Source of the DNA: Bacteroidota bacterium
GTDB lineage: Bacteria; Bacteroidota; Bacteroidia; Chitinophagales; JADIYW01
Length of the DNA stretch: 48,231 nucleotides
NCBI GenBank assembly: GCA_020436225.1
Contig: JAGQYE010000092.1
Span: forward strand, 1-48,231
Direction of reading: 5' to 3'
Positions 1,411 through 12,681 of this stretch are shown here, piece after piece. How positions within the stretch are numbered: the first letter of the stretch is position 1; each line of letters starts with the position of its first letter. A model generated the notes under the pieces. It was not told the origin of the DNA, did no database searches, and worked only from the letters and a program-made list of their open reading frames with translations. The position numbers and the translations under genes are program-made.

Positions 1411-2463
1411 ATGAAAACGATTTTAATTACAGGAGGAGCAGGATTTATAGGATCACACGTTGTGCGTCTTTTTGTGCGTAAATATCCAGACTATAAAATC
1501 GTGAATTTAGATAAGTTGACTTATGCAGGAAACTTAGAAAATTTATCTGACATTGAAGATTTACCTAACTATCAATTTGAAAAGATAGATATTGTTGATG
1601 CTGAAGCTGTAAATTCCATTTTTAAGAAATACAATTTTGATGGCGTTATCCATTTAGCAGCAGAATCACATGTTGACCGTTCCATTCACAATCCTTTGGA
1701 TTTTATTATGACCAACGTTGTCGGAACTGTCAACTTATTAAATGCAGCTAAAGAAGCTTGGAAATCAAATTACGAAGGAAAATTGTTCTATCATGTTTCT
1801 ACAGATGAAGTTTATGGCAGTTTAGGAGTAGAAGGCTTGTTTACCGAAACCACACCTTACGACCCGAGGTCACCGTATTCAGCATCTAAAGCAAGTTCTG
1901 ACCATTTTGTTCGTGCTTACGAGAATACTTATAAATTGCCGATTGTATTGTCTAATTGTTCCAATAATTATGGTTCATTTCAATTTCCTGAAAAATTAAT
2001 ACCTTTATTCATCAATAATATCAAAAATGACAAGGCACTTCCTGTATATGGAAAAGGAGATTATACGCGCGATTGGCTTTTTGTAGAAGATCATGCAGCA
2101 GCCATCGATGTAATTTACCATAAAGGAAAAATAGGAGAGACGTATAATATTGGTGGTTTTAACGAATGGCAAAATATCGACTTGATAAAATTATTGTGTT
2201 CAATTATGGATAAAAAATTGGATAGACCAAGTGGAACATCTGAGAAATTAATTTCATACGTAACTGACCGACCAGGACACGATAAACGCTATGCCATAGA
2301 TGCCACAAAATTGAATAAAGAATTAGGCTGGAAACCAACTTTACAATTTGAAGAAGGATTAGAAAAAACGGTAGATTGGTATTTACAAAATGAGAGATGG
2401 CTCGACCAAGTAACATCCGGAGAATATTTAAACTATTACAACAAACAGTACAAACATGCTTAG
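1411..2463 (+). CDS. rfbB: dTDP-glucose 4,6-dehydratase
   Basis: This short-chain dehydrogenase-type enzyme of 350 residues converts dTDP-glucose to dTDP-4-keto-6-deoxyglucose, the second step of dTDP-rhamnose and related deoxysugar synthesis. The NAD fingerprint GGAGFIG is at residues 8-14. STDEVYG carries the dehydratase Asp-Glu pair, and YSASK supplies the catalytic Tyr156 and Lys160. AAESHVDRS and NYGSFQFPEKLIPL are also typical of RmlB. The partner rfbC lies at 6327, but rfbA and rfbD are not in the window, so the pathway must be completed elsewhere or lead to another deoxysugar. The stop codon touches the next gene, indicating coupled translation. Confidence 0.95.
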   Translation: MKTILITGGAGFIGSHVVRLFVRKYPDYKIVNLDKLTYAGNLENLSDIEDLPNYQFEKIDIVDAEAVNSIFKKYNFDGVIHLAAESHVDRSIHNPLDFIMTNVVGTVNLLNAAKEAWKSNYEGKLFYHVSTDEVYGSLGVEGLFTETTPYDPRSPYSASKASSDHFVRAYENTYKLPIVLSNCSNNYGSFQFPEKLIPLFINNIKNDKALPVYGKGDYTRDWLFVEDHAAAIDVIYHKGKIGETYNIGGFNEWQNIDLIKLLCSIMDKKLDRPSGTSEKLISYVTDRPGHDKRYAIDATKLNKELGWKPTLQFEEGLEKTVDWYLQNERWLDQVTSGEYLNYYNKQYKHA

Positions 2464-2464
2464 T

Positions 2465-5209
2465 ATGAAGCTAATTAAAAAATATAGTACACTTTGTCTT
2501 TTGATGCTTTTATCTTGTATGGCAAAAGCACAATTTGTACCATCAACATTACCATCAATTCCTGCTGCTAACACAGATCCTACAGTAAAAGAAATTTTTA
2601 GAAAACTAGAAGATACTTTACAAGTAAAACAAGGTGAAATAAAAGTAGAAGAAGTAAAGAAATCTCAAAACTTAGCTAAAGGATTTTCTCCAAGAAAAGA
2701 AGATGCAGATGAGCAAGCTGGCGCAATAGGAAATGCAACTAATGCAGACGAAGTAAAAGGAAATAAAAATGCACCTGACAAATTATTAAAAGAGGCACAA
2801 AAAGCTTCTGAAACAGTTGAAAAATTAACAGCAACAGCAACACTTGAACTTAGAGAAAATTTAGATTCTGTTGATATTTTCGGTTTCAACTATTTTCGTC
2901 AAAAAGATGTAAAGGTTTTTAATAATGCTGTTGATATTAAACCTCCGGGAAATTATATTCTTGGCGTAGGAGACCAAATCGTTGTTTCCATTTGGGGTTA
3001 TGCCGATTACAACCGACTTTTTTATATCGATAAAGATGGTTACATCCAACAAGAAAATATTGGAAGAATTTACTTAAAGGGATTAACCTTAGATCAAGCA
3101 AAAGCATTACTTCGAACAAGATTTGCAAATGCCTATATGATCGATAAATCTGACTTTGACGTATCTATCAATTATTCGAGAGTAATTACGATTAATGTAG
3201 TTGGTGATGTGGAAAACCCAGGTTCTTATACCTTTCCAGCCATCAACACAGCTTATAATATTTTAGCTTATGTAGGCGGACCAACAAAATCAGGAACAAT
3301 AAGAGATATTCAAATAAAAAGAAACGGGAAAATTGTTCGCAAGTTTGACCTTTATAAATTCTTATACACACCAGAAAAACAAGATGATATTTTCTTAGAC
3401 AATAACGATTATATCTATGTGCCTTCTCAGAAAAATATAGTTCGCGTTGAAGGAGCAGTAAACAGAGAAGGAAAATACGAAATGCTACCCGGAGAAACGT
3501 TTCAAGATTTATTGAAATATTGTGGTAATTACAAACCGGATGCCTTCACTAAAGTTATTCAAATAAGAAGATATAAAGACAATAAACAAATTCTTATTGA
3601 TATAGATTTAGATAGCGTTCGAAATGTGAACGGAAAAGTAGAGTTACAAAATGGAGATGTTATAGGTGTTCGTTCTATTCCGGAAAAAGTAAAAAATTAT
3701 AACGAAGTTTACGGCTCTGTATTATTGCCAGGAAGATATGAATGGAAAGAAGGCGACAGAGTTTCAGATTTAATCAAGAAAGCACAAGGTTTAAAAGAAG
3801 ATGCTTTTTTGGATGAAGCTTATTTAATTAGAACAAATTTTGATGATTTTAGAAAGCATACATTTAAGATTGACCTGAATAAAGTTTTAGCAGATCCCAA
3901 TTCACCGGATAATATGCTTCTTACTTTCCGAGATGTCTTAGAAGTGTATTCTAAAACAGATTTCTTTGATAGATTTGATATTGAAGTAAATGGCGAAGTA
4001 CGCAACCCTCGAAGATTTGAATCCGAAAAAGGAATGTCGCTTCGCGACGCATTAATAATGTGTAATGGATTAAAAGAAGAAGCACTTTTAGATAAAATCA
4101 TTATCTATAGAGTAAATAGTGATTTAACTGAACAGCTAATATCTTTTCCAATAGATACATCTAATAATTTTGCAGCCTTAGATACATTTAAACTAAAAAA
4201 GCGAGATAAAATTTATGTATTAAAAGATTTACGACGTATTGACAGATATTATATTGAAGTAAATGGAATGGTGCGCAATGCCGATACATTTCCTTATATG
4301 GTTAATATGACCTTGGCAGATGCGCTCGTTTTGGCAAAAGGTTTTAAAATGGAAGCAGCTTCTAACAGAATTGAAATTGCTCGTATTGCCAACTATAATA
4401 AAGCCATCTCACAATCTGTTCCAACGCAAGTAACCATTTTAAATTATAGTGTAAGTAAAGATATAGGCAACGATCCAGTTGCGAATAGCATAAAACTTCA
4501 ACCATACGACAAAATATTTGTGCGCCCAACTCCGGAATTTGAATACCAGAAAAAAGTATATGTAAAAGGAGAAGTATTATATCCCGGAGAATATGTGTTA
4601 ACCACCAAAGATGAGCGCTTAGCATCAGTTATCGAACGAGCCGGTGGATTAACAAGATTTGCGTATGCCGACGGAGCCCGACTAACTCGACAGGAAGAAG
4701 GTGTAGGAAACATCCTAACTGATTTGAATAAAGCTTTAAAAAATAAGACTTCTAAATTCAATTATGTATTGAAAGAAGGCGATGTTATTGATATTCCGGC
4801 AATCAAAGATTTAGTAACTATTCGAGGTGCATTTAATTACCCGGCAGAAAATAAACCGGATAATTTATATGTTCCGTTTACTGAAGGAAAAGATGCAAAG
4901 TATTATGTAATGAAATATGGTGCCGGATTTAGTGATACTGCCTACAAAAGAAAAACTTATGTAGTTCGTCCAAATGGCCAAATCTTGAGTACTCACCGAA
5001 CAATGTTTGGAAAGAATTTCCCGAAAGTAGAGAAAGGATCTACTATTATTATTCCGGGGAAAATGGAAAAAGTTAAAAAGAAACGAGACAAATTACCGGG
5101 CGATGTCGGGCAACGCATTCAACGTGCAATTTCCGGTACAATAGGAGCTGTATCATCTGTACTTACACTCTATTTGCTATACTTAACTGTTAAAAATACT
5201 GCACATTAA
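2465..5209 (+). CDS. Polysaccharide export outer-membrane protein with seven SLBB repeats
   Basis: This Wza-family protein has about 914 residues, more than twice the length of E. coli Wza. A signal peptide ends near MAKAQF. A low-complexity charged linker follows to about residue 150. The polysaccharide export domain (PPGNYILGVGDQIVVSIWGY) lies at about 158-235. Seven SLBB-like beta-grasp repeats start near residues 241, 325, 413, 505, 595, 696 and 783, each with a V-x-G-x-V-x-x-P/R-G-like core. A single hydrophobic helix at about 889-910 may cross a membrane. The ATG at 2465 gives a clean signal peptide; an ATG at 2456 overlapping rfbB would add only MLS. It sits directly before a Wzz-like gene, so together they form the outer and inner parts of an export channel. 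Confidence 0.88.
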   Translation: MKLIKKYSTLCLLMLLSCMAKAQFVPSTLPSIPAANTDPTVKEIFRKLEDTLQVKQGEIKVEEVKKSQNLAKGFSPRKEDADEQAGAIGNATNADEVKGNKNAPDKLLKEAQKASETVEKLTATATLELRENLDSVDIFGFNYFRQKDVKVFNNAVDIKPPGNYILGVGDQIVVSIWGYADYNRLFYIDKDGYIQQENIGRIYLKGLTLDQAKALLRTRFANAYMIDKSDFDVSINYSRVITINVVGDVENPGSYTFPAINTAYNILAYVGGPTKSGTIRDIQIKRNGKIVRKFDLYKFLYTPEKQDDIFLDNNDYIYVPSQKNIVRVEGAVNREGKYEMLPGETFQDLLKYCGNYKPDAFTKVIQIRRYKDNKQILIDIDLDSVRNVNGKVELQNGDVIGVRSIPEKVKNYNEVYGSVLLPGRYEWKEGDRVSDLIKKAQGLKEDAFLDEAYLIRTNFDDFRKHTFKIDLNKVLADPNSPDNMLLTFRDVLEVYSKTDFFDRFDIEVNGEVRNPRRFESEKGMSLRDALIMCNGLKEEALLDKIIIYRVNSDLTEQLISFPIDTSNNFAALDTFKLKKRDKIYVLKDLRRIDRYYIEVNGMVRNADTFPYMVNMTLADALVLAKGFKMEAASNRIEIARIANYNKAISQSVPTQVTILNYSVSKDIGNDPVANSIKLQPYDKIFVRPTPEFEYQKKVYVKGEVLYPGEYVLTTKDERLASVIERAGGLTRFAYADGARLTRQEEGVGNILTDLNKALKNKTSKFNYVLKEGDVIDIPAIKDLVTIRGAFNYPAENKPDNLYVPFTEGKDAKYYVMKYGAGFSDTAYKRKTYVVRPNGQILSTHRTMFGKNFPKVEKGSTIIIPGKMEKVKKKRDKLPGDVGQRIQRAISGTIGAVSSVLTLYLLYLTVKNTAH

Positions 5210-5211
5210 AT

Positions 5212-6309
5212 ATGGCTGAGAACGATGAAATAGAAATTAAAGAGCAGCCTGAAGAGCAATCTGAGCAACAAGATAATGTAAACCTTGTTAAAGATGAAGG
5301 GTTCGTTAACGTTGTTAAAATTGGAAAAGAACTTGGTGGTATTGTTAAAAGCTATGCTTTAATTTTTGTTATTCCGATAATTCTCACAGGTTTATATGGC
5401 TATTATCAAGGTAAAAAAGAAATTCCGACTTATACAGCTAAAATTACTTTTTTTCTATCTGAAGAGCGTCCACAAATTCCTGGTTTCGGAAGTGGGAATT
5501 TCTCCAACTTATTACAATCCACCAATGCTAGTTTTGGAAACCCTAAAAAATTAAAAGAGTACTCTTTTACAGAACGTGTATCTGCTAAACTCTTATTTAA
5601 AAAAGTAGTTTTTAGAGGTAGAGAAGATTATATCGCCAACCATTATTTAAGACTTTATTCCGGTTATACCAATAGTTATTTTAGTGATTTTACATCTGTG
5701 AAGGATATGAGTATTCCGGATTATTTAGTTTTTAAACAAATCTTAAATGCAATAAAATTAATTGTTTCAATAGATTATAACGAAGCAGCAATTTATTCAA
5801 TAACTATTACTACAAAAGATGAGGAATTTTCAAAATTATTATGTGAATCCTTCTACGAAAACTTAACAGATTACTATATTGAACGTGCTACTAAAAAAGC
5901 AAAAATTACGGTTGACTTTTTAGAAGAAAAATTAGCTTATGTTAAAGCTCAATTGGAAAATTCAGAATTTAATCTAGCTGATTACAAGGACCGAGCAAAT
6001 AACCTCGTTACCTTTAAAGCTGATTTATATGAAACTCGATATCTTAGAAATAAACAATTATTAGAACAATTATACTCAGAAACAGCACAAGGATTGGAAG
6101 CTTCGAAAACCAACTATGCTTCTATTATGCCATTATTCCAAACAATTGACGAGCCACATTTGCCACTTCAAAAAAATGTAGTTTCTACACGAAAACAATT
6201 TTTGATGTATATGTTACTTGGTGTATTTATAGATATTGTTGCTATTGGTATAATTTATTTTAGAAGACATTTTTGGTCAGATATTAAGGCAACAATTAAG
6301 AGTGCGTAA
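5212..6309 (+). CDS. Wzz-type chain-length determinant / polysaccharide co-polymerase
   Basis: This inner-membrane protein of 365 residues has two transmembrane helices, at about 45-66 and 327-349, flanking a periplasmic coiled-coil region rich in Lys, Glu and Leu. That is the Wzz/PCP topology. The N-terminal cytoplasmic segment is strongly acidic and Gln-rich. There is no C-terminal tyrosine-kinase domain, so this resembles a PCP-1 or split PCP-2a protein, and any kinase would be encoded elsewhere. The start is two bases after the exporter stop, so the two are co-translated. The role is to set polymer length and engage the outer-membrane exporter. Confidence 0.82.
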   Translation: MAENDEIEIKEQPEEQSEQQDNVNLVKDEGFVNVVKIGKELGGIVKSYALIFVIPIILTGLYGYYQGKKEIPTYTAKITFFLSEERPQIPGFGSGNFSNLLQSTNASFGNPKKLKEYSFTERVSAKLLFKKVVFRGREDYIANHYLRLYSGYTNSYFSDFTSVKDMSIPDYLVFKQILNAIKLIVSIDYNEAAIYSITITTKDEEFSKLLCESFYENLTDYYIERATKKAKITVDFLEEKLAYVKAQLENSEFNLADYKDRANNLVTFKADLYETRYLRNKQLLEQLYSETAQGLEASKTNYASIMPLFQTIDEPHLPLQKNVVSTRKQFLMYMLLGVFIDIVAIGIIYFRRHFWSDIKATIKSA

Positions 6310-6326
6310 TAACAAACTGAAATAAT

Positions 6327-6881
6327 ATGGAAATAATTTCTACCAGCTTACAAGATGTTTATATAATAAAACCCAAAGTTTTTACAGATAATAGAGGATT
6401 TTTTTACGAAAGCTATAACGAAAAAGTATTAAATGAAGCCGGATTAAATTATACTTTCCTTCAAGATAATCATTCGAAGTCTTCTTTCGGCGTTTTGCGC
6501 GGTCTGCATTTTCAAAATAATCCTTATGCTCAAGCAAAGTTAGTGCGTGTTATTCAAGGAGCAGTTTTAGATGTTGCCGTAGATATTCGCAAAGGTTCTC
6601 CAACATATTTACAACATTTTTCATTAGAACTTAGTGCAGAGAATAATTTACAACTATTAATTCCAAGTGGATTTGCACATGGTTTTGTTGTGCTGACCGA
6701 AACCTGCGAATTTCTCTATAAATGTGATAATTATTACAATAGAAGTTCAGAAGGCGGAATTGCATACAACGATAAAACCTTAAATATAGATTGGAAAATT
6801 CCTGAAAATGATATCATCCTCAGTGAAAAAGATAAACATAATCCAACTATTGAAAATGCCAATTTACAATTTACCTATTAA
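6327..6881 (+). CDS. rfbC: dTDP-4-dehydrorhamnose 3,5-epimerase
   Basis: This cupin-fold epimerase of 184 residues, the usual family length, inverts C3 and C5 of dTDP-4-keto-6-deoxyglucose. Diagnostic segments are NRGFFYESYNEK near residue 22, FGVLRGLHFQ with the catalytic His at 61, KLVRVIQGAVLDVAVDIR at 71-88, and PSGFAHGFVVL. It acts on the product of rfbB from the same operon. The two are separated by the exporter and Wzz genes, so sugar synthesis and export are transcribed together. It starts 17 bases after the Wzz-like gene. Confidence 0.94.
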   Translation: MEIISTSLQDVYIIKPKVFTDNRGFFYESYNEKVLNEAGLNYTFLQDNHSKSSFGVLRGLHFQNNPYAQAKLVRVIQGAVLDVAVDIRKGSPTYLQHFSLELSAENNLQLLIPSGFAHGFVVLTETCEFLYKCDNYYNRSSEGGIAYNDKTLNIDWKIPENDIILSEKDKHNPTIENANLQFTY

Positions 6882-6884
6882 TAT

Positions 6885-7652
6885 ATGCTGAATCAAATAA
6901 TAGACATTGCCATAAATGCAGGTAATGCCATCTTAGAAATATATCAACAAGATATTGCTGTTGAAATTAAAAGTGATAATTCACCGTTGACACTCGCCGA
7001 CAAAAAATCGAATGAAATTATTGTAAACGGATTGAAAAATTTAACTCCTGAAATTCCTATTATCTCCGAAGAAAATAAATTGATTGATTATGCTGAAAGA
7101 AAAAATTGGAATCAATATTGGTTAGTTGATCCTTTAGATGGTACCAAAGAATTTATCAAGAAAAACGGTGAGTTTACCGTCAATATTGCATTGGTAGAAA
7201 ACGGAACACCAATAGCAGGTGTGGTGCACGTGCCGGCAAAAAAATGCACCTATTATGCACAAAAAAATCAAGGAAGTTTTAAGATAGAAAATGGAAATAC
7301 AACACCAATCCATCTTAGAAAATTGGCCGAAGACGGCATTCTAAAAATTGTAGGCTCTCGTTCGCATCAAACACCGGAATTGTTGGAGTATGTCGAGCAA
7401 CAAAAATCAAAATTTAAAGAAGTTGATTTTGTGGCTGCCGGAAGTTCTTTAAAATTTTGTTTGATAGCTGAAGGTATTGCTGATGTTTATCCGCGATTAG
7501 GACCAACAATGGAATGGGATACTTGCGCCGGACATATCGTTGCTACCGAAGCCGGTGCAGAAGTTTTGCGAGCAGATACACTTCAACCATTAACCTACAA
7601 TAAAGAAAATTTACTCAATCCTTATTTTATCGTCAAAAATCCGGAATTGTAA
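6885..7652 (+). CDS. cysQ: 3'(2'),5'-bisphosphate nucleotidase, CysQ-like
   Basis: This inositol-monophosphatase-superfamily enzyme has 255 residues. Lithium-sensitive family motifs are visible: ISEEN, the metal-binding VDPLDGTKEF, and the C-terminal EWDTCAGHIVATEAG (WDxxA type). The spacing and the GTKEF wording fit CysQ, which hydrolyses PAP to AMP, better than inositol monophosphatase. It starts three bases after the rfbC stop and is the last gene of the operon. CysQ in a polysaccharide operon could clear PAP from sulfotransferase reactions or simply be a housekeeping passenger. No sulfotransferase is visible here. Confidence 0.85.
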   Translation: MLNQIIDIAINAGNAILEIYQQDIAVEIKSDNSPLTLADKKSNEIIVNGLKNLTPEIPIISEENKLIDYAERKNWNQYWLVDPLDGTKEFIKKNGEFTVNIALVENGTPIAGVVHVPAKKCTYYAQKNQGSFKIENGNTTPIHLRKLAEDGILKIVGSRSHQTPELLEYVEQQKSKFKEVDFVAAGSSLKFCLIAEGIADVYPRLGPTMEWDTCAGHIVATEAGAEVLRADTLQPLTYNKENLLNPYFIVKNPEL

Positions 7653-7758: not shown

Positions 7759-8358
7759 TCATTTATTTTTTTTCGCTTCTTTAGAATATTTTAATTGATA
7801 AAATTGTTGCATCAACCAAGCTTCTATTCTATTAATGGATTTAGCACCGCCTAAATATTTTGCTTCTACAAATGCTTTCGAAGTTTTTTCTAATAATTGG
7901 GCTGCTACGTACGCATCATCTATATGAATACCCAAGCAAATGCTATCACCATTCGGCAAAATGGCAGCATATCTGGAACATAAACTGCTAAGGATTTTCT
8001 TTTCATTTTTGGCTACTCTAACAGAGACACCTAACAACTGCGCTTGATCATCTAAAATAGGTGGAATTTCTTCTTTTATTTGAGATGCATATTCTTGTTT
8101 AGTGATTAAAATTGCTTGGATTTTTTTCTTTTTGGAAAATATTTCAGCTATATAAGAATCTGATTGTAATACCGTAATATCTTTTTCAGTAAGCGATGTA
8201 ATAGATTTAGTTGGAGATGAAATTAAAAACTCGTTTTCGTCTGTTCGCAAAGCAATTTGTAATACGGTTACTTTACCCCAACTTTTATAGCCGGCACTTT
8301 GTTTCTCAAAATAGCTTCCGGCATTTAGTATAGTTTGTATTGCTGTTTGTTTGTTCAT
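7759..8358 (-). CDS. Degenerate class II aldolase-fold protein (probable pseudoenzyme)
   Basis: This protein of 199 residues aligns by eye with its upstream neighbour, the intact class II aldolase. Matching blocks are SWGKV with TWGNV, AILITKQEYAS with AVIHTHQMYAS, ILDDQAQLLG with VLDETHQKILG, and AAILPNGDSICLG with AALMSNHGVVCIG. In this alignment all three metal histidines are replaced (Ile85, Lys87 and Gly137), and about 12 residues around the catalytic Glu are missing. It also has a basic C-terminal extension. The ATG at 8358 is chosen because the longer frame, from a TTG at 8412, overlaps the upstream gene; the gap is then 14 bases. It is the last gene of a four-gene minus-strand cassette. 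It may be a regulatory or structural partner of the active aldolase; no function is proven. Confidence 0.72.
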   Translation of the reverse strand: MNKQTAIQTILNAGSYFEKQSAGYKSWGKVTVLQIALRTDENEFLISSPTKSITSLTEKDITVLQSDSYIAEIFSKKKKIQAILITKQEYASQIKEEIPPILDDQAQLLGVSVRVAKNEKKILSSLCSRYAAILPNGDSICLGIHIDDAYVAAQLLEKTSKAFVEAKYLGGAKSINRIEAWLMQQFYQLKYSKEAKKNK

Positions 8359-8372
8359 GTTTCGCGCTATTT

Positions 8373-8951
8373 TTATGCCGATTTTTTTTGAGATTTTATG
8401 AAAAGTTCGCAAGCATTTTCCAAAGCTTGTGCCACAATAAAAGTTTTATCTAAATCAGTGCCGATGCATACTACACCGTGGTTCGACATTAATGCTGCAT
8501 TCGATGTTTCGATGGCTTTTGCCGTTTCTACCGTAATTTTTTTGGTATTTGGCAAAGCATAAGGTGCCGCTTTTATAATTTTTGCTCCCAATATTTTTTG
8601 ATGCGTTTCATCTAAAACAAGCACATCTTTTTGAGCCGCTGCAACAATAGATGCATACATTTGATGTGTGTGAATAACGGCATTAATGTGTGGTCTTGTT
8701 TTATACACTTCGCAATGTAATTTTAATTCGGAAGATGGTTTGATAGAACCTTCGTATTTTAATGTATAAATATCCACCAATACCATATCATTCGGAGTAA
8801 GTTCATCGTATGGTCGTCCGCTCGGCGTAATCACCATTTGTCGGTCGTTTACTTTTATGCTTACATTGCCCCAAGTACGCGCTACTAATCCTTCTTTTAG
8901 TAAGCGTTTTCCGGCATCACATACTTGTTGTTTTATTGTATCTATATTCAT
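8373..8951 (-). CDS. Class II aldolase / adducin-family sugar-phosphate aldolase
   Basis: This 192-residue zinc enzyme is of the fuculose-1-phosphate aldolase / ribulose-5-phosphate 4-epimerase family. Visible landmarks are TWGNVS (26-31), TPSGRPYDEL, SSELKLH with the catalytic-type Glu75, the HTH metal pair His94 and His96, and SNHGV with His158. The spacing closely matches E. coli FucA (Glu73, His92, His94, His155). It would cleave a sugar phosphate to DHAP or a related ketone plus an aldehyde; the substrate cannot be read from sequence. The start codon overlaps the kinase stop as ATGA, so the two are translationally coupled. It is followed by a catalytically dead paralogue. Confidence 0.9.
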   Translation of the reverse strand: MNIDTIKQQVCDAGKRLLKEGLVARTWGNVSIKVNDRQMVITPSGRPYDELTPNDMVLVDIYTLKYEGSIKPSSELKLHCEVYKTRPHINAVIHTHQMYASIVAAAQKDVLVLDETHQKILGAKIIKAAPYALPNTKKITVETAKAIETSNAALMSNHGVVCIGTDLDKTFIVAQALENACELFIKSQKKSA

Positions 8952-10486
8952 AAGGCAGGTTGCTCAAATCGTTCTTTATTAATGGTGTGATAGGTTTTTT
9001 CTAATTGATAATAGAGTTGTTGATAGGTATGAAATAATTGATTATATACTATTTCATTTTCTTTAGATGGAATATATGTATCCGCAATTTGTACTAATTT
9101 TTGGATATCGTCAAATGATTGGAATGTTTTACTACCGACCATCGCACACATGGCAGCACCTAAGGCTCCAGCATGTTTAGGTTGCGATGTGCAAATAATT
9201 TTTCGCTTTGTAATATCGGCAATTGTTTGCATCCATGTTTTACTAAAAGTACCACCACCGGTTATTTTTAATGCTTGTATGTTGAACCCGAAATCTTTTT
9301 CTAGATTTTGAATCGTCCAACGTAAATTATAGGCAATACCTTCGAAGTGTGCACGTGCAATATGTGCGCGCGTATGTTGGTGCGAAAGATTAAACATGGT
9401 AGAACGTGTCGTTGTTGTACTTACCGGACAACGCTCGCCCAAAAACCATGGCGTAACAATTAAGTAGTCGGCGCCGGCAGGTGTTTGTTTTACTTCATCT
9501 TCAACCAATTTATACAACTCATTTTCGGATAATTGTTTCTTTTCGGATTCGTATATTTTGGATATTAGCCATTCTGTGTTTACGCCTGCAGATTCTGTGA
9601 TGCCTACTACTAAGTTCATAGTCGGGTCGGCACTTTGCAAACAAAATAGTCCATTTTTAAATCCTCTTGGTTGTTGTGTTGTAACGCCTACCCAAGCCGA
9701 AGTTCCCACGTAAATATGAGCTTCGCCTTCGCCTATTGCAGTTGTTCCTAAGGCTGCACTTTGCGTATCATCGCAACCACCAAAAACGGCAATACCTTGC
9801 GGCAATCCCATTTCGGAAGCGGCTTGTGCAGTTAGTGTGCCCACCTCATCTGTAGATTTTACTAAGTCGGGTAATTTATCCGTACCTACACCGGCAATTT
9901 TAAAGAAAATACTTTCCCAATCTTTCTTTTTTAAATTAAAAGCATAAGAGCAAGCACCTGACCATTCTGCCACCATTTTTCCGGTGCATTTGAACTTCAG
10001 ATAGCCGTTTACATCTAAAAATTTATGTGTTTTATGAAAAATATCCGGCTTGTTTTCTTTCAACCATTTTAGTTTTGGAACTACATCTTTTCCGGTAATT
10101 TCTACACCTACAATTGCTTTAAATAGACGTTTTCCGCCCAATTTTCTCATGATTTGTCGTGCTTGTTTTTCCGCACGACCATCAACCCAAGAAATATTAT
10201 TATAGAGAATATTTCCATCCTTATCGGCAGGAATAATTCCCATGGCTTGTGTTGTAAACGCAATACCTTTTATCAGTGTAGTATCAACATTGGATTGTTG
10301 AATTAGTTGTTTTGTTGCTTTGCAAATTGCTTGCCAGTAATCATCCGGAACTTGCTCTACCCAACCCGGATTAGGCATCAGCAGTGGATACTCAGCAATA
10401 GCATCTGCGGCAATATTTCCTGCTTCATCTACTAAAATAGATTTTACACTGCTGGTGCCAACGTCGTATGCTAAAAAGTAGTTCAT
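8948..10486 (-). CDS. FGGY-family carbohydrate kinase (xylulokinase-like)
   Basis: This sugar kinase of 512 residues has the ASKHA fold. The N-terminal phosphate-binding loop is AYDVGTSSVKSILVD, and GGCDDTQSAALG holds the probable catalytic Asp pair at 239-240. The C-terminal ATP site is ITGGGTFSKTWMQTIAD with PKHAGALGAAM. Overall it resembles xylulokinase, but no isomerase or sugar transporter is adjacent, so the substrate is open. The stop overlaps the aldolase start by four bases. This fits a kinase-then-aldolase pathway in which a keto-sugar is phosphorylated and cleaved. A strong hairpin at 10510-10545 separates it from the upstream aminotransferase gene. Confidence 0.9.
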   Translation of the reverse strand: MNYFLAYDVGTSSVKSILVDEAGNIAADAIAEYPLLMPNPGWVEQVPDDYWQAICKATKQLIQQSNVDTTLIKGIAFTTQAMGIIPADKDGNILYNNISWVDGRAEKQARQIMRKLGGKRLFKAIVGVEITGKDVVPKLKWLKENKPDIFHKTHKFLDVNGYLKFKCTGKMVAEWSGACSYAFNLKKKDWESIFFKIAGVGTDKLPDLVKSTDEVGTLTAQAASEMGLPQGIAVFGGCDDTQSAALGTTAIGEGEAHIYVGTSAWVGVTTQQPRGFKNGLFCLQSADPTMNLVVGITESAGVNTEWLISKIYESEKKQLSENELYKLVEDEVKQTPAGADYLIVTPWFLGERCPVSTTTTRSTMFNLSHQHTRAHIARAHFEGIAYNLRWTIQNLEKDFGFNIQALKITGGGTFSKTWMQTIADITKRKIICTSQPKHAGALGAAMCAMVGSKTFQSFDDIQKLVQIADTYIPSKENEIVYNQLFHTYQQLYYQLEKTYHTINKERFEQPAL

Positions 10487-10509
10487 TGCTTTGTTTTTCT
10501 ATAGCAAAC

Positions 10510-10545
10510 AAAATGCAATCTATTTTTATGGATAGATTGCATTTT
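10510..10545 (-). terminator. Long hairpin between aminotransferase and kinase genes
   Basis: A perfect 14-base-pair stem (AAAATGCAATCTAT pairing with ATAGATTGCATTTT) surrounds an 8-base loop in the 76-base gap. On the minus strand the stem ends in TTTT, then GTTTG. It may terminate or attenuate transcription after the aminotransferase gene, or act as a processing or stability element within the cassette mRNA. Confidence 0.6.
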
Positions 10546-10562
10546 AATGAGCGAATAGCTAT

Positions 10563-12020
10563 TTATTTTTTTACATTTTTAAATACTCTCTCAAATCTGT
10601 TAAGTGCGTCATCAATAACTTCGTCAGTATCTGCCATACTGCAATACAATCTGCTGCCTGCTAAGGTAACAATTCCTTCTGCCATGTAAGCGGCTCCGTA
10701 TTCTTCCATTAATTTTTTTCGTCGATTAATTTCTTCTAAAACAGATTTTAACTTAGATAATTTTATTTTGACAAACAACGTTCCGGCAGCCTCTAAATGG
10801 CAAATAGAACCTTGGTTATATGCTACGAACGGCAATCCATATTTATCGATTAATTGGTTCAAGCCTTTGGTTATTCTATCGCCGGATCTTCCGGCTTTTA
10901 CACAGGCGTTGGTGCGTTCTATCTCTGCTAATGTGTGGTATCCTGCGCAGCAACTCAATGGATTTGCTGCCATGGTTCCACCCACTTTTACTTTTTTACC
11001 ACCTTGTAATCCGGCAGCCAAACCGTCCATATATTCTGCTTTTCCACCGATACCACCTGCGGAAGGGTAACCACCTGCCACTACCTTTCCAAAAATAGTT
11101 AAATCCGGTTTTACGTTGAAATAGCCTTGTGCACCACTCATTCCGATGCGGAATGCCGTTACTACTTCGTCAAAAATTAACAATGCGCCGTATTTGTCAC
11201 ATAATTGACGTGCTTGTTGTGCAAATTCTTTATAAACCGGATAAGTACCGCTTTCCGGACCAACCGGTTCTAAAATTACGGCGGCTGTGCCACCTCTTAA
11301 TCGGTTCCATTTTAGTTTACTTTCTAATGCGTCGATATCGTTTGGTGGCACGGCTTGTGTATGCCAATGCATCATAAAAGGAATTCCTTTTGCATCAAAG
11401 AAACGTGTTCCCGGAATACGTAAATCGTACACCATTTGGTCGCTCCATCCGTGATACGCTCCACCAATTTTAATTACTTTAGTTTTTCCCGTTTTGATAC
11501 GAGCTAAACGCAAAGCACCCATTACGGCTTCTGTTCCACTGCCTAACATTCTAAACCGTTCTACAGATGGAATATTTCTACAAATAATTTCTGCTAATTT
11601 GTATTCATACTCATGTAATAATCCGGTTGATGGTCCGCATTCATTAATCAATTCGATTGCTTTCTCACGCACTAAAGGATAGTTGCTACCTAAAACGGTT
11701 GGTCCACCGGCTTGTAAAAAGTCGATGTATTTATTGCCATCTACATCATATAAATATGCACCTTCCGCTTTGTTGAAAGTTAAAGGGAACGGATAATTAA
11801 ATGCTAAATTATGCTGGACTCCGCCCGGAATATATTGTTGAGCTTTTTCATATACAGCTCGTGACTTAGTGCATTTGGTTTTGTAAAAATCCAAATATTT
11901 TTCCATTGCTTTAGGCTCGATATGTTGCAATGGCAATGAAACCAAATGTTCTAATTTTTTATAAATTGGTTTGATGTCATGATATTCGCTAATAGAAAAA
12001 GTATTATGGTTCATATTCAT
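10563..12020 (-). CDS. Class III PLP aminotransferase, glutamate-1-semialdehyde aminomutase-like
   Basis: This 485-residue fold-type I PLP enzyme is close to HemL but has about 50 extra N-terminal residues. Motifs are YIPGGVQHN, LGSGTEAVMGALRLAR for PLP phosphate binding, GGAYHGWSDQ, the metal-free cofactor Asp in LLIFDEVVTAFRIG, and the Schiff-base Lys312 in TIFGKVVAGGYP. The N-terminal extension and the cassette context (sugar kinase and aldolase) argue against a haem-synthesis role. It more likely transaminates or isomerises an amino-aldehyde or amino-sugar intermediate. It is divergent from the Crp/Fnr-type regulator, with a perfect TTGAT-N4-ATCAA palindrome centred about 64 bases upstream of its ATG. 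A TAAATTTA sequence ten bases before the start could be a weak -7 element. Confidence 0.82.
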   Translation of the reverse strand: MNMNHNTFSISEYHDIKPIYKKLEHLVSLPLQHIEPKAMEKYLDFYKTKCTKSRAVYEKAQQYIPGGVQHNLAFNYPFPLTFNKAEGAYLYDVDGNKYIDFLQAGGPTVLGSNYPLVREKAIELINECGPSTGLLHEYEYKLAEIICRNIPSVERFRMLGSGTEAVMGALRLARIKTGKTKVIKIGGAYHGWSDQMVYDLRIPGTRFFDAKGIPFMMHWHTQAVPPNDIDALESKLKWNRLRGGTAAVILEPVGPESGTYPVYKEFAQQARQLCDKYGALLIFDEVVTAFRIGMSGAQGYFNVKPDLTIFGKVVAGGYPSAGGIGGKAEYMDGLAAGLQGGKKVKVGGTMAANPLSCCAGYHTLAEIERTNACVKAGRSGDRITKGLNQLIDKYGLPFVAYNQGSICHLEAAGTLFVKIKLSKLKSVLEEINRRKKLMEEYGAAYMAEGIVTLAGSRLYCSMADTDEVIDDALNRFERVFKNVKK

Positions 12021-12105: not shown

Positions 12106-12681
12106 GTGATAAAAGCTGCTCCATTTCTGTCTTTTTTAAGGCAATTCGGTGAATTACCGGATGATTTATCGCTTGCGGTACAAGAGAAAGCCTTGTATTT
12201 TGAATTACCTAAAAAACATATTTTATTAAAAAAAGATAAGGTATGCGGACACTTGTATTATATAGAATCCGGCTTGGCAAGAAATTTTTATGAGGTAGAC
12301 GGAAAAGAATTGACAACAGATATTAGTATAGACAATCAGTTGTTGGTTTCGTTCTCTAGTTTTATTTCTCAAACACCATCTATTGAATCAATAGAATTAT
12401 TAGAAGATTGTAAGTTGTATGCATTGCGATATGAAGATTTGCAAGATTTATACCGCAATTTTAAACAAATGGAACGCTTAGGTCGATTGATGGCAGAACA
12501 TCATTATAATTCATTATATAAGAAAAATTACAACTTTAAATTTCGCAGCACTACTGAGCGCTACGAAGCATTGTTTAACTCTAAAATAGAAATTATAAAG
12601 CGAGTGCCGATTGGCATCATTGCTTCTTATTTGGGCATGACTATTGAAACATTAAGCAGAATAAGAAGTAAACAAGATTAA
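12106..12681 (+). CDS. Crp/Fnr-family transcriptional regulator
   Basis: This protein of 191 residues has an N-terminal cyclic-nucleotide-binding-type beta-roll (KKHILLKKDK, LYYIESGLARNFY) and a short C-terminal winged helix-turn-helix. The recognition helix IETLSRIRSK carries E-x-x-S-R, the same contact pattern as E. coli FNR (VETISRL), which reads TTGAT. The N-terminal cysteine cluster for an iron-sulfur cluster is absent (only two scattered Cys), so it is not an oxygen sensor of the FNR type. The start is GTG; no ATG lies nearby in frame. A matching TTGAT-N4-ATCAA palindrome lies 14 bases upstream. The ligand is unknown. Confidence 0.85.
   Translation: MIKAAPFLSFLRQFGELPDDLSLAVQEKALYFELPKKHILLKKDKVCGHLYYIESGLARNFYEVDGKELTTDISIDNQLLVSFSSFISQTPSIESIELLEDCKLYALRYEDLQDLYRNFKQMERLGRLMAEHHYNSLYKKNYNFKFRSTTERYEALFNSKIEIIKRVPIGIIASYLGMTIETLSRIRSKQD

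Follow-up and report, generated by a model that had tools for sequence, protein, structure and literature searches.

A tail-less class II aldolase and its dead, tail-bearing paralogue form a conserved gene pair in Chitinophagales: a candidate split active site

Introduction

Known aldolases and epimerases of family PF00596 are homotetramers with a metal site and a C-terminal tail in each subunit. Tyr209 of FucA and Tyr229 of AraD are contributed by the C-terminal tail of the neighbouring subunit. These two tyrosines, together with Asp120 of AraD, have been assigned as acid/base residues in sites built by two adjacent subunits (PMC5434028). Furthermore, the FucA active site takes Tyr113 from the neighbouring subunit (PMC11841055), and the C-terminal helix of one protomer touches the loops of the next protomer beside the active site (PMC12599920). 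Class II aldolases without the tail also exist and are tetrameric on their own (PMC12599920). A different use of subunits is found in trypanosomatid deoxyhypusine synthase, where a dead paralogue raises activity about 3000-fold in a 2:2 heterotetramer (PMC3663545).

Here, two adjacent genes, A and D, are described from a Bacteroidota bacterium (assembly GCA_020436225.1) of the order Chitinophagales, lineage JADIYW01. The window, that is, the whole stretch of DNA analysed, covers positions 1 to 48,231 of contig JAGQYE010000092.1 on the forward strand. Compared with the L-fuculose-1-phosphate aldolase / L-ribulose-5-phosphate 4-epimerase family, A has the same fold, metal ligands, catalytic Glu and phosphate-site residues, while D is predicted to have the same fold and carries the C-terminal tail, and what each subunit of the known homotetramers holds is split over two genes. 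The likeness to the trypanosomatid prozymes (DHSc/DHSp and AdoMetDC; PMC3663545) lies in a dead paralogue accompanying a live copy, with sites between subunits; A and D differ from them in being bacterial, adjacent and translationally coupled, and in that the live copy A is without a conserved part. The aldolase domains of adducin (PMC12599920) resemble D in their class II aldolase fold, their lack of catalytic activity and a C-terminal helix contacting the next protomer, but adducin is a eukaryotic cytoskeletal protein, whereas D is bacterial, has a single domain and is linked to the gene of a live aldolase. Similarly, the 2IRP-type 'no CT' class II aldolases (PMC12599920) are without the C-terminal tail, like A, but are tetramers without a known partner, whereas A is paired with the D gene. 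In the literature searched, no split class II aldolase of the kind proposed for A:D was found for the superfamily.

The gene pair and its neighbours

The features considered below are as follows.

8373 to 8951, minus strand: gene A, a class II aldolase of 192 aa with complete metal and phosphate residues and no C-terminal tail (PF00596, 170 bits by Pfam)
7759 to 8358, minus strand: gene D, a paralogue of 199 aa with a predicted class II aldolase fold and zero metal ligands (profile match to A)
8029 to 8064, minus strand: D residues 99-110, the near-invariant PPILDDQAQLLG loop, located around the FucA Tyr113 position (all 16 sequences agree at 11 of its 12 residues)
7762 to 7854, minus strand: D residues 169-199, the conserved C-terminal tail, in which the columns of Tyr187 and Tyr191 are invariant
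10563 to 12020, minus strand: HemL-like class III aminotransferase, the constant neighbour of A and D (beside the pair at 17 of 17 other loci examined)
8948 to 10486, minus strand: FGGY carbohydrate kinase, xylulokinase-like (FGGY_N and FGGY_C domains), a frequent but not constant neighbour

In the window, A and D are tandem minus-strand genes with 14 nt between them. The start of D was taken as the ATG at 8358; an alternative ORF started by TTG, 7759-8412, is longer and overlaps A. In the whole genome, PF00596 matches occur only at the positions of A and D.

Protein A retains its own site and lacks the parts lent to a neighbour

The metal site of A is complete. Glu75, His94, His96 and His158, which the initial annotation had correctly listed for the upstream copy, align with Glu73, His92, His94 and His155 of E. 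coli FucA, and Asn29, Ser44, Gly45, Ser73 and Ser74 align with substrate-binding residues of the same enzyme (roles of the FucA residues from PMC11841055). Asn29, Ser73, Ser74, Glu75, His79, His94, His96, Asn157 and His158 are invariant in 21/21 A sequences, and the part of a catalytic class II aldolase site that a subunit provides for itself (three His, Glu and the phosphate-site residues) is present in all 21. The residues lent to a neighbour, a Tyr113-type residue and a tail Tyr, are missing from A: the segment aligned with FucA Tyr113 contains no Tyr, and the C-terminal tail is absent from every one of the 21 sequences. Among Bacteroidota homologues outside the A and D groups (the outside homologues), 27 of 28 run at least 21 residues past the end point of A, and all 27 with intact ends are tailed; one further fetched homologue, L099, is truncated at a contig end and was excluded. 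The NCBIfam models that fit A best are of the ribulose-5-phosphate epimerase and fuculose-phosphate aldolase types; methylthioribulose-1-phosphate dehydratase ranks below them.

Protein D is a relative of A without metal ligands

Taken alone, D scores 21.1 bits against PF00596 (E 3e-4), and so falls below the single-sequence gathering score of 22.2. A sequence search with single D gave zero matches among solved structures, and the D profile found only weak ones there, the best at E 0.32 and both of them aldolase-family chains. Profile-profile comparison of D with A gave E 5e-17 at a probability of 98.8%. The structure predicted for D, a model built from 4 sequences, reached pLDDT 75 and pTM 0.75. 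With this model, Foldseek ranked FucA-type aldolases first (E 5e-9 to 2opi), VIA gave Z 17.4 to 6btd over 172 residues with an rmsd of 4.0, and the VIA-align matches listed belong to the class II aldolase superfamily in 50 cases out of 50 (Z 17.4 to 12.8). The fold search proposed earlier for the 199-residue protein, which might have placed it elsewhere, thus turned up no unrelated fold, and on its model D is a protein of the class II aldolase/adducin fold (PF00596).

The ligands themselves are gone. In the profile alignment to A, the three His positions of D hold Ile85, Lys87 and Gly137, exactly as the initial annotation had read them by eye, and D is shorter than A by 13-14 residues at the Glu site, which bears out the loss of about 12 residues estimated there. 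The three His positions vary over the 16 D sequences (I/L/V/M/F/K; Q/R/K/Y/E/H; G/K/Q), and the columns of A's own-subunit active site are scattered in the same set. D therefore has neither the three His ligands nor the catalytic Glu of a catalytic class II aldolase, and the original description of tandem class II aldolases with a ligand-free downstream copy is confirmed by Pfam, profile-profile comparison, fold search and alignments.

A and D occur together

Among 248 genomes sampled from the order, D is present in 22, A in 22 and both in 21. Each of the two genomes with one gene only has it at a contig end: in G182 the contig, 3.9 kb long, continues for just 147 bases past D, and in G009 the contig breaks off within A. 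Like a prozyme, which is found only together with its live enzyme, D shares 21 genomes with A and is otherwise seen alone only at such an end. Wherever both are present they are adjacent, with A upstream of D; at 9 of the 19 loci measured the genes share a 4-nt ATGA stop/start overlap, and in the remaining loci the distance is -1 to 84 nt. D spans two families of the order (f1 and f8). In a phylum-wide sample of 395 genomes it was found solely in the window's own genome, which makes D a lineage-restricted family. The aminotransferase, A and D are all absent from the complete genomes G006 and G007 of the window's own genus, and a plasmid search gave zero matches. Taken together, the sequences indicate a real and conserved association, restricted to this lineage, between an aldolase without a tail and a dead paralogue that has one, the latter a putative prozyme-like subunit.

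The conservation of D

Purifying selection on D is strong. Between the window and its nearest relative, dN/dS is 0.03 for D, at the same level as A (0.04), and it is 0.05-0.2 for D in other pairs with estimable dS, several pairs being near saturation. Reading frames are uninterrupted in every complete D copy, and 42 of 199 positions are invariant (n = 16 sequences, two families), with D diverging faster than A (mean distance 0.44 vs 0.27). Judged by these patterns, D is a selected gene and not a decaying one.

Of the invariant positions, 31 of the 42 fall within residues 98-110 and 152-198 (p 3e-11, a value only indicative because the segments were picked after viewing the alignment). The D tail is in register with ordinary class II aldolase tails through an LGG motif, hydrophobic positions and the invariant Tyr191; in 12 of the 28 outside homologues the tail Tyr sits in exactly this column, and in the FucA-like L080 it is one residue off. 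The tail is modelled at low confidence (pLDDT 50-61), so that equating D tyrosines with FucA Tyr209 depends on sequence register. As a separate observation, some D copies in one genus (g53, L036-L039) are 177 aa long and are missing about 22 residues of the N-terminal half, in the region with the phosphate-site strand; their PPILDDQAQLLG loop and tail are intact.

Shared residues bear on the origin of the pair. Gln97 is common to A (21/21) and D (16/16) and occurs in 0 of 28 outside homologues, while Thr95, Trp27 and Cys162 are also common to both, each being found in a few outside sequences as well, some of them AraD-like. These residues suggest a duplication. In the tree, A forms one clade and D another, long-branched one, support for a joint A+D clade being low (43/0).

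A proposed heteromer and its alternatives

The losses in the two proteins appear complementary in the alignments: A kept its own-site residues and lost the tail, and D kept the loop and tail and lost the ligands. Since the elements working on the site of a neighbour survive in D and are gone from A, D more likely completes an active site than regulates or stabilises A. The best explanation, and on balance a probable one, is an A:D heteromer that is obligate and in which D completes the active site. The partnership proposed in the initial annotation is supported by co-occurrence, adjacency, the stop/start overlap and purifying selection; as to the role it gave to D, that of a regulator or stabiliser, the evidence points beyond it, more towards active-site completion.

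We infer how the complex is built, in what subunit ratio, what D adds to catalysis and which reaction results as follows. A would hold the metal ion and the sugar phosphate, and D, without a catalytic site of its own, would lend the neighbouring A what homotetramer subunits all lend to one another, namely its PPILDDQAQLLG loop and its C-terminal tail, the latter supplying the acid/base tyrosine, Tyr191 or Tyr187. The hetero-oligomer would probably be an A2D2 ring replacing the usual homotetramer of the family, with two working and two dead sites. It may have originated by tandem duplication followed by complementary loss, of the own-site parts in one copy and of the lent parts in the other. 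The substrate would probably be a phosphorylated sugar or an amino-sugar-like compound, undergoing aldol cleavage or epimerisation. The full picture of a class II aldolase split after duplication into two complementary half-sites within an alternating A2D2 ring has, in our estimate, an even chance of being correct. By analogy, the complex would work like the trypanosomatid prozymes, with putative activation by D. When A and D were modelled as a single chain, joined across the stop codons that separate the in-frame L024 genes and with 4 alignment rows, the model was of low confidence (pLDDT 48, pTM 0.43) and no interface was obtained. The chief reservation about the heteromer is that tail-less class II aldolases are tetrameric unaided (PMC12599920), so that A could be self-sufficient and D an allosteric or separate factor. 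Co-occurring, adjacent genes would also be seen if A and D served separate steps in a single pathway.

The same co-occurrence, adjacency and selection data fit a complex in which D binds A solely as an activating, stabilising or allosteric subunit and the site of A needs no residue of D. Such a role has a precedent in trypanosomatid deoxyhypusine synthase, where a dead paralogue acts through structural change (PMC3663545). Tail-less aldolases are, moreover, able to form tetramers (PMC12599920). We regard this reading as unlikely, though worth keeping in view: it leaves unexplained both the concentration of invariant positions in the loop and tail of D and the loss of the tail in A alone.

Alternatively, D could be unpaired with A, serving as an independent binding protein, regulator or new-chemistry enzyme in the pathway to which A and the aminotransferase belong. 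Metal-free class II aldolase folds have become binding domains, for example in adducin (PMC12599920), family relatives have taken up other chemistry, as in pyruvic oxime dioxygenase (PMC11841055), and the invariant DDQ of D could form a site of its own. We consider an independent D improbable, given that zero sampled genomes have D with A demonstrably absent, that A and D are translationally coupled, and that the conserved tail is the element contacting the neighbouring protomer in the class II aldolase fold. That D is a decaying pseudogene from an old tandem duplication, as its lost ligands, sub-threshold single-sequence Pfam score, faster divergence and shortening in one genus might suggest, is hardly credible, being contradicted by dN/dS of 0.03-0.2, intact frames and 42 invariant positions over two families.

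Genomic context and possible pathway

At each of the 17 loci examined in addition to the window, the HemL-like aminotransferase adjoins the A-D pair. It occurs in the same genomes within the order, and its substrate is therefore probably key to the pathway; G002 carries the aminotransferase and, at a contig end, a D fragment. The protein scores 285 of the 527 bits of the HemL cut-off and has a long N-terminal extension. Heme synthesis was rejected as its role because the genome has a separate, above-cut-off HemL on another contig. Five loci (L071, L072, L073, L076 and L079) have no FGGY kinase next to the triad, which leaves aminotransferase-A-D as the core. From the gene content, a kinase together with an aldolase suggests that a phosphorylated ketose is cleaved or epimerised, and the ever-present aminotransferase suggests that either the substrate or the product is an amino compound.

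The 5-deoxyribose salvage cluster (PMC6079011) was also compared with the operon and did not match, its gene content being different. That pathway runs through an isomerase and an enzyme resembling either methylthioribose kinase or a phosphorylase, while an FGGY kinase and an aminotransferase go unmentioned in the source (PMC6079011). The literature searched held nothing specific on the operon or on heteromeric class II aldolases.

Several further elements lie around the pair. A Crp-family regulator gene (12106-12681, plus strand) is divergent from the aminotransferase, has relatives near the cassette in 6 other loci and is a candidate operon regulator. Between the aminotransferase and kinase genes is a 15-bp AT-rich hairpin with an 8-nt loop (10509-10546, minus strand), a possible terminator or attenuator of a kind whose count is at chance level. 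Two relatives (L066, region 1561-7180; L063, region 8441-9892) carry a sulfatase gene downstream of D, joined in L066 by M19 dipeptidase-like and amidase genes on the same strand; these genes beyond D could possibly hint at the substrate.

Significance

A pair of about 1.2 kb in bacteria shows complementary losses between a live enzyme and its dead paralogue. There is a practical warning in this for annotation, as A, which would be annotated as a fuculose-phosphate aldolase or ribulose-phosphate epimerase, may lack activity if produced by itself. If the proposed heteromer is true, A and D would offer a clean, testable example of how a homomer with shared sites becomes an obligate heteromer.
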